From Jaapia argillacea MUCL 33604 (Eukaryota > Basidiomycota > Agaricomycetes > Jaapiales > Jaapiaceae): a DNA stretch of 64,000 nucleotides. The stretch is taken from positions 1,390,593 through 1,454,592 of the forward strand of contig KL197713.1 in NCBI GenBank assembly GCA_000697665.1, written 5' to 3'. Under the pieces are notes generated by a model. It had not been told where the DNA came from and did not search any database. It saw only the letters and a program-made list of their open reading frames with translations. Shown here piece by piece: positions 62,146-64,000 of this stretch (positions within the stretch are counted from its first letter, which is position 1; each line of letters opens with the position of its first letter). The position numbers and the translations under genes are program-made.

Positions 62146-62563
62146 CTCGAACGATGGGTTGTAAGGTTCATGAGCGTGTCTGCTAGCCAAGAATATATAC
62201 TCGCCTTCGACGGTATGTGCAGGACAAAGGGAGACGCTCACGGCATCTTCAATAAATCTCGCTGTCGTTCACTATATTTACAAACAGCTCGGAGCTGTTC
62301 AGTTTCCTTTGGAATAGTGAGGGGAGTCGTGGTCGTTTGGCAGGAGATCGGAGTCTCCTCCCACTAGTGTTCTTATCGTTTGTGACTACCTTTTTCTTTG
62401 AGATGAATTCGAGCACATCTAGTAAGAGCCAAGTACCCATCCCCACCCAACCATAGAATTATCAGAATTATAGATGAACTGAAGAAGACAAAGGGACAGG
62501 AGATTCGCCCAGGCCAATGCATGAAGCAGAAAAGGTGATGGTGCAGATGTAGTATAACAGCGC
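62146..62563. other. Convergent intergenic region
   Basis: Between the 3' ends of the leucine-rich protein gene and the PI 4-kinase gene. No gene seen. Confidence 0.5.
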
Positions 62564-64000
62564 CTACTTGTAAGGAATACCTTGATTATGACCCAATCAG
62601 TTGAAATCCGCACGACGAACGAGTGCATCATACCGTTTTGTAACTGTGGAAGAGAAGGTTAGCACCAGTATCATTGTTTGGAGTGTGACACCTACTCTTT
62701 GGAATTCATCGTATGCTGTGCTCCGAACGTTTTCGTGTGCGTTTCGAATTACCCCCATCATCCACTCTGCAGCTTGGCGCTCCGTGATGCCCAAGGCAAA
62801 GCGGTCTTTCAGCCGCTTGATAGTTCCTTCACCCTTGAAAGATGGTAAGCCGGTATCGAGCATCAGTCGGACGGCATCGACAAGCTGATCAGCGTGTGGG
62901 CGCAGGGCTAGGAAGGCTTTCACAGTGAGCTGTTGGAATAGTTCATAACCTTGTGAGTATCGCCCTCCCATCAACACCACCATCTCGTGTGTCAACTTGA
63001 AGGAGCTAGGTTCGAACTTGATGCCCTGGAATGCTGGCATATGAGAAAGGAATGATCGCTGGCAAGCAGATAACTTACTCCAGGACGTAAGAACCGCAAA
63101 GACAAACCAATTAGTCAGGTACTGTGGCAGATAAAATGAACGAAACTTATCTATGTCAAACAAAAACCCGAAATCTGGATGCACAAGGATGAGTGGTGGC
63201 CCGAAAAAGACGAGTGATGACGAACCAATATGGATGATATGACCTTCCCCATCAATCATGATGTTGCCATTATGTCTGTCCTTAATTTGCAAAATATAAC
63301 ATGCAACCGAATACGCGGCCATCGACTGGATGAAGTTTAACCGTGCTCGTTGAAACGGGATAGTGTCTTCTCCTCCATATTTCGAGATGAAGAAATCCAA
63401 CAAATCATTGACCTTAGCGCGTCCCATTTCGTCTCGCGACGTCGAGTTTGGAACGACGTCGATGACACCGCACTAGCATAAGAGTCAGGAGGGACAACTT
63501 CAGAAACAGCCTCCGGCTACTTACCCCCGGTGCGGTAGCGGTAACTCGATAGGGATACAGATAGAGGGTCAAGCCAACAGTGGTAAAGACATTCTTGAAC
63601 ATCGCAATGACTTGAAGAGCGAGGACGTCCTGCCGACAATCGTCCCCCACTTTGAAGATAGCTTGGAGCCAAACGTCGTATTCTGTTCGCTTTCCTTCGC
63701 CAACCCCTTCGCCGTCCAGTAACGAGTCCGGGTCACTATCAATCACCACACGTTCCTTCTTGACCTTGAAAGTTGCCATAAAGGGCGCCTAGAACAAGGT
63801 AAATAATGACATAGGTGCGGAGAAAATATAAGGTAACCTTTGCGTGACTTTGCAGAGGCCTGCCCGACTTGCGATCAATATCGACGACTTGGCCATCTGG
63901 ATTGCTCGGCAGGTAGACGCCAACCTCAACTCGGATCTTTGCCATCTCTTCGTCGATTTTGGCCTTGATGGTGTGTTAGGACATGTTTCATGCCAAGAGA
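62564..64000 (-). CDS. STT4: Phosphatidylinositol 4-kinase STT4-type (PI4KA), C-terminal part only
   Basis: Partial gene; the window cuts it within an intron whose acceptor precedes 63963. The visible part covers the lipid-kinase unique end and catalytic domain: GVYLPSNPDGQVVDID, the ATP-site block APFMATFKVKKE, KVGDDCRQDVLALQVI, CGVIDVVPNSTSRDEMGR, the catalytic loop IKDRHNGNIMIDGEG and metal-binding HIDFGFLFDIGPGG. Then come FEPSSFKLTHEMVVLMGG and the C-terminus RLQNGIPYK. Role: makes PI4P at the plasma membrane. Two features are unusual: the sequence between DI and GI is rebuilt only by an AT-AC intron (63150-63087) plus an 8-nt exon (63086-63079), and the last join (AAC G|GT ATT CCT TAC AAG TAG, stop at 62564) restores the invariant terminal GIPY. 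Confidence 0.94.
63087..63150 (-). other. Putative AT-AC intron in PI 4-kinase
   Basis: On the minus strand the exon ends GACATAG and the intron reads ATAAGTTTCG...GGTTCTTAC, 64 nt, with a branch-like TGACTAAT about 25 nt before its end. Only this excision keeps GPG of the invariant DIGPGG. The 5' end ATAAGT matches U2-type AT-AC introns (GTAAGT with G1 changed to A) rather than the U12 consensus ATATCC. Confidence 0.7.

Follow-up and report, generated by a model that had tools for sequence, protein, structure and literature searches.

A predicted U2-type AT-AC intron beside an 8-nt microexon in the STT4/PI4KA gene of Jaapia argillacea

How is the activation loop of a fungal PI4-kinase put together when the exon that should carry its Pro-Gly-Gly (PGG) residues is bordered by a sequence that starts with AT and ends with AC? 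The question arises at the end of the window, that is, the whole 64,000-nt stretch analyzed in the present study (KL197713.1:1,390,593-1,454,592, Jaapia argillacea MUCL 33604; assembly of 43.7 Mb in 95 contigs). Judged by its sequence, the minus strand of this region is the 3' part of an STT4 / PI4-kinase III-alpha (PI4KA) gene. Either ordinary introns yield a functional loop here, or nothing is removed, or the loop is assembled across an intron with AT-AC ends and an exon of 8 nt.

Gene identity and exon structure

The script-spliced gene model, the upstream part of which is provisional (several upstream introns differ between two gene-finder runs), comprises 2028 aa and 36 introns. It matches PF19274 (PI4K_N, 106.4 bits), PF00613 (PIK accessory, 87 bits) and PF00454 (PI3/PI4 kinase, 152.3 bits), and the presence of all three domains in one protein is the combination by which STT4/PI4KA is recognized. 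When positions 62500-63800 were searched as DNA against the assembly, a single place matched, which speaks against a second allele or paralogue, and GACATAGATAAGT has one occurrence in the whole 43.7 Mb. A viral contig scan returned one match (22 residues, 50% identity, a phage-like contig), taken as chance. Two nearly identical kinase segments, presumably TOR-like, lie on different contigs (L034, C4:142472, and L035, C28:25314), and a further PF00454 match at C4:233726 contains two internal stops; duplication, an allelic contig or a read-through intron are possible accounts of this pair and of the additional match.

Near the active site, the gene is split into short pieces, all of them on the minus strand. 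A 247-nt coding exon (63226..63472) contains the catalytic loop DRHNGN and ends in CATATTG. It is followed by a 51-nt GT-AG intron (63175..63225, GTTCGT...ATCCAG), the donor of which, GTTCGT, is found in 15 of 609 introns, restricted to 43-120 nt, that a self-trained gene finder predicted for 272 kb in and around the window. The next exon, ATTTCGGGTTTTTGTTTGACATAG, is only 24 nt long (63151..63174) and supplies the rest of HIDFGFLFDI together with the first base of a Gly codon. Preceded by GACATAG, the putative AT-AC intron (63087..63150, ATAAGT...TTCTTAC, 64 nt, phase 1) contains two overlapping candidate branch points within 63110..63118, CTGAC (A at 63115) and CTAAT (A at 63111). The 8-nt microexon GTCCTGGA (63079..63086) would encode Gly-Pro-Gly together with the preceding G, and a 53-nt GT-AG intron in phase 0 (63026..63078, GTAAGT...TTCCAG) separates it from a 330-nt exon (62696..63025) that starts with GGCATCAAG (GIKFEPSSFKLTHEMV...). 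Across the AT-AC intron, the microexon and the 53-nt intron, the predicted spliced cDNA is GACATAGGTCCTGGAGGCATC, with junctions at 63151/63086 and 63079/63025. The letters and coordinates that the first-pass annotation had assigned to these three elements were checked and are correct.

The 3' end of the gene contains a second microexon, of 10 nt (TTACAAAACG, 62634..62643, minus strand), which with its neighbours encodes LQNG of the C-terminal LQNGIPYK; human PI4KA ends in YQNDIPY. It is flanked by GT-AG introns of 52 nt (62695-62644) and 53 nt (62633-62581), and the last coding exon (62564..62580, 17 nt) ends with the stop codon TAG at 62566-62564. In the surrounding 272 kb, 19 of 537 predicted internal exons are 15 nt or shorter, a count that includes artefact lengths of 0 and 1.

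Splice isoforms of the activation loop

Between 63165 and 63026, every isoform containing no more than three introns, each at least 25 nt long, was enumerated, with GT-AG and GC-AG as the end pairs at first and AT-AC as the one addition. Among the 269 GT-AG/GC-AG isoforms, 44 are open into IKFEPSS and none contains PGG (PGGIKFE). The earlier claim that no GT donor in the area restores these residues thus holds for GT-AG and GC-AG introns. Allowing AT-AC raises the total to 798 isoforms, 131 of them open and six with PGG, and a single one has exactly five residues between DFGF and PGG, as in human PI4KA; among the enumerated isoforms, this spacing is obtained only with AT-AC splicing. It could be produced by 16 donor/acceptor cuts, and only the cut 63150-63087 has GT-AG, GC-AG or AT-AC ends.

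The reading frame imposes a further constraint. Read in the frame of PGG, the first stop upstream is the TGA at 63117, and AG is absent from the 33 bases that lead from this TGA to the P codon; the 3' splice site must therefore be non-AG if GTCCTGGA is to be kept in frame. A twin-intron (stwintron) arrangement was rejected by the same reasoning, because no AG follows the in-frame TGA, which leaves TTAC as the end of a nested intron as well. Among the isoforms examined, the 8-nt exon, which falls within microexon size (≤15 nt), is required by both the reading frame and the protein. The 125 nt from 63150 to 63026 were also shuffled 120,000 times with their dinucleotide content kept, and solutions were sought with either one or two introns, each 40 to 121 nt long. 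Some canonical solution appeared in 52 shuffles and some AT-AC solution in 44, and in none of the 120,000 did a solution have every donor reading NNRNGT, as both real donors do here. The arrangement of an AT-AC intron with a microexon exceeds chance.

Comparison with related kinases indicates which residues matter. The activation loop reads DFGFMFESSPGG in human PI4KA and DFGFLFDIGPGG in the predicted Jaapia protein, both with PGG five residues after DFGF. In a second kinase of the same genome, which we take to be PIK1-type, the corresponding loop reads SNSPGN. The 'invariant GPG' of the first-pass annotation was therefore overstated, since human PI4KA has SSPGG and the PIK1-type kinase SNSPGN, and DIGPGG does not stand as a general PI4KA feature, the human protein having ESSPGG. 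By sequence, P-G is the part common to these loops, the first Gly being Ser in both comparison proteins. The AT-AC form aligns with the PIK1-type loop without gaps and scores 92, or 84 when the leading H is omitted, against 67 for the best of all 44 open canonical isoforms. This top canonical isoform uses the donor GTTTCG, which ranks below all 609 predicted donors (percentile 0), and the five of the 44 in which every donor lies above the 10th percentile score 49 at most.

Ordinary introns could nonetheless be used without the microexon, for instance a 108-nt GT-AG intron at 63141-63034 (GTTCAT...GCCAG) that would yield HIDFGFLFDIDKFPFQGIKFEP. An open frame is, after all, kept in 44 of the 269 canonical isoforms, and in the Pfam and PDB-sequence comparisons, which took in this one rival of the 44 open ones, the generic PF00454 profile gives it 162.2 bits against 159.5 for the AT-AC form. 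This lead of 2.7 bits, a small margin, goes against the AT-AC reading; the PI4K-specific comparisons are weighted above it, PF00454 being a profile for the loops of both PI3K and PI4K. Against PI4KA (chain 9b9g) the AT-AC form scores 111.1 bits and the rival 103.0, and against PI4KB (8q6f) 79.3 and 71.1, a loss of 8 bits in each case. The rival product is also three residues longer than the PI4KA, PI4KB and PIK1-type loops in the alignments, and its donor GTTCAT lies at the 1.3rd percentile and occurs in none of the 609 predicted introns, though 26 of these are at least 100 nt long (the finder limit being 120 nt). A GT-AC intron from the same donor position, 63141, constructed by hand, keeps PGG, but at the cost of three extra residues and with the same poor donor GTTCAT. 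Taken together, the use of ordinary introns at this place appears very unlikely.

It could also be that nothing is removed and both segments are coding, which would place a 39-residue insert in the activation loop. The whole stretch is open, and coding scores (0.4 spliced, 0.9 retained) do not separate the two readings and so do not reject retention. The insert, however, replaces the common P-G, and the retained form falls to 90.1 bits for PI4KA, 63.7 for PI4KB and 149.6 for PF00454. Moreover, donors close to the consensus, branch points and a tract rich in pyrimidines are all present in the stretch, and fungi commonly have open introns whose length is a multiple of three, which make up 9.2% of GT-AG introns in the figures cited from one survey (PMC7072748). 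We consider retention as the normal state of this gene slightly more doubtful still than the use of ordinary introns.

The AT-AC reading is thus supported: among the enumerated isoforms, only a U2-type AT-AC intron with the 8-nt exon would give both PGG at the human PI4KA spacing and a gapless fit to the PIK1-type loop. Very probably, then, this 3' end of STT4/PI4KA builds its Gly-Pro-Gly from one base of the 24-nt exon and the 8-nt microexon, with a U2-type AT-AC intron between them.

Intron type and proposed splicing

The donor ATAAGT departs from GTAAGT only at base 1 and has G at +5, and the intron consequently looks U2-type. With the exon end TAG included and intron bases 1-2 left out, this donor lies at the 96.4th percentile among the 609 predicted donors. 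The length of 64 nt is ordinary, 173 of the 609 predicted introns being equally long or longer. Downstream of the candidate branch points, 28 nt (CTGAC) or 24 nt (CTAAT) follow the branch A, no AG occurs from there to the 3' splice site, and the 3' tract is 68% pyrimidine, which is the pattern of a U2-type branch point with an AG-free tract. These distances are rather long compared with a median of 17 nt for CTRAC; at least 28 nt follow the A in 27 of 125 CTRAC occurrences, so that the CTGAC distance falls in the upper part of the range. The donor percentile, the isoform enumeration and the PIK1-type alignment together support the original proposal that the 8-nt exon borders an AT-AC intron of U2 type.

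The AT-AC ends would equally be expected of a U12-type intron removed by the minor spliceosome. The start of the intron, however, has three mismatches in eight to the U12 donor ATATCCTT, at +4, +5 and +6, against the one to GTAAGT, and the best TCCTTRAY-like sites have two mismatches (28 nt from the end) or three (9 and 20 nt). Genome searches for U6atac, U12, U11 and U4atac gave no matches, against nine matches over the cut-off for U6 snRNA; this difference is weak evidence because the four minor families found nothing in any control genome either. In the part of a review cited here, Basidiomycetes are described as being without minor spliceosomal components (PMC8199999). A U12-type intron is the least probable of the readings considered. 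Of eight U6 copies compared by sequence, four (L003-L006) are near-identical at 117 nt; another, L010, is perhaps a pseudogene, since its ACAGAGA box is replaced by GCAGAGA.

A true GT-AG intron could also be masked by a sequencing or assembly error, since the sequence is known here from the assembly alone. Such an error would have to comprise two separate substitutions, hitting exactly the first and the last intron base and together creating a compatible non-GT-AG pair, and neither intron end lies at a homopolymer run. We regard this as highly improbable, if somewhat less so than a U12-type intron.

A survey of the surrounding 272 kb says little about how common such introns are in this genome. 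The gene finder, which was given a single additional end pair in each run and introns of up to 120 nt, placed 25 AT-AC introns, within the range of 9 to 38 obtained for 14 control end pairs, and there is no AT-AC excess over the control pairs in the 272 kb. As AT-AC ends account for approximately 0.02% of introns (by arithmetic from the figures cited from PMC7072748), this sample has almost no power and is too small to exclude a rare AT-AC class. The focal intron itself was passed over even when the AT-AC class was allowed, probably because the unspliced reading is open.

For the focal intron, U1 and U6 would pair with ATAAGT as with a GTAAGT-like donor, branching would take place at the adenosine of CTGAC or CTAAT, and the A at the first base with the C at the last would form a compatible end pair that permits the second step. 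Simultaneous binding of both ends of an exon of 8 nt is probably prevented by its shortness, and the AT-AC intron and the 53-nt intron would therefore probably be spliced out in succession, by intron definition. Compatibility between the first and last intron bases is known from yeast mutants, and the Jaapia locus looks like a natural instance of it, with A and C replacing G and G. Mutation of a yeast intron showed that, of all end pairs other than GT-AG, AT-AC works most efficiently, as reported in the passage cited from PMC6726248 (citing Parker and Siliciano 1993).

Consequences of mis-splicing and comparison with known systems

Over the stretch tested, correct splicing gives 299 residues. 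Skipping of the microexon (184 residues), retention of the AT-AC intron alone (208) or of the 53-nt intron alone (209), and use of the first AG after the branch point (206) would each cause a frameshift and an early stop; in the case of skipping, the stop follows six wrong residues (LFDI-GHQVRT-stop). Splicing failure here would remove a catalytic-loop motif, and STT4/PI4KA is in general an essential gene. That the kinase activity would depend on removing both introns, as the first-pass annotation had argued, is a sound inference from these predicted frames.

Joint retention of both introns, which the first-pass annotation does not mention, has a different outcome. From 63174 to 63026 (minus strand), the AT-AC intron, the microexon and the 53-nt intron form a stop-free stretch that includes 117 intron nt, and the product would be an open frame of 338 residues with 39 extra residues and no PGG. 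This form is expected to escape nonsense-mediated decay, and it constitutes an annotation trap: because the frame is open when both introns are retained, the kinase that gene finders would tend to predict has the 39-residue insert and lacks P-G. Automatic annotation would probably miss the AT-AC intron and the 8-nt exon.

The end pairs could also serve as a lock by which the 8-nt exon is always included. If the microexon were skipped, a donor starting with A would have to be paired with an acceptor ending with G (AT-AG). The pairs A with C and G with G are compatible, but splicing of AT-AG by the major spliceosome would be expected to be inefficient, given the limited flexibility of its interaction between first and last bases (section cited from PMC2831892). 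Yeast work also lies behind this expectation. Incompatibility between U2- and U12-type introns is said to prevent skipping, between two spliceosomes; here, neighbouring introns with mutually incompatible ends would guard a tiny exon against skipping within one spliceosome. Selection could maintain such a lock, because skipping gives an early stop. The sequence evidence agrees with such a lock. Chance fixation of the AT-AC ends is nevertheless the simpler account, and we consider the lock unlikely. If true, it would be a new way of securing microexon inclusion. In the literature searched, no report was met of an AT-AC intron beside a microexon or of this lock idea; both may still have been reported. 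A GT-AG intron at this position in related species would allow dating of the switch and of the sequence in which its two base changes arose.

Splicing of this kind is rare, but U2-type AT-AC introns and tiny exons are each already known, and the Jaapia locus is a new example. Intron 21 of human SCN4A (U2-type, AT-AC II) resembles the Jaapia intron in its AT-AC ends and G at +5, and its removal by the major spliceosome is likewise what would be expected in Jaapia (cited section of PMC2831892). The sodium-channel AT-AC introns are thought, in the same section, to derive from U12-type introns (PMC2831892), whereas the Jaapia intron is fungal, 64 nt long and adjacent to an exon of 8 nt. The SUT635 AT-AC protointron and the alternative AT-AC junction of RPL30 in Saccharomyces occur in a fungus without a minor spliceosome, as Jaapia may also be; these lie in a noncoding RNA or at an alternative junction, none of the standard yeast introns normally using AT-AC, whereas the Jaapia junction would be needed for a common kinase motif (passages cited from PMC6726248).

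Broader surveys supply numbers. Among annotated fungal AT-AC introns, 46 are divisible by three and open, or 10.7%, which by arithmetic corresponds to approximately 430 fungal AT-AC introns in all (figures cited from PMC7072748), and at least 42 AT-AC introns are suspected to be real in C. elegans (figures cited from PMC3033335). In the portions cited, these two surveys give counts and draw attention neither to a neighbouring microexon nor to a catalytic motif (PMC7072748, PMC3033335). On the side of the exon, plant microexons reach down to 1 nt and are often missed by annotation, and the small ones (≤15 nt) are, as the Jaapia 8-nt exon would be, tiny exons important for the protein (section cited from PMC8831610); unlike the Jaapia case, AT-AC is mentioned zero times in that paper. 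The Trichoderma Xlr2 microexon is likewise a tiny, protein-relevant exon, but it serves as a regulated switch in the account cited (PMC11121469), whereas the Jaapia microexon would be required for the common P-G of the kinase loop.
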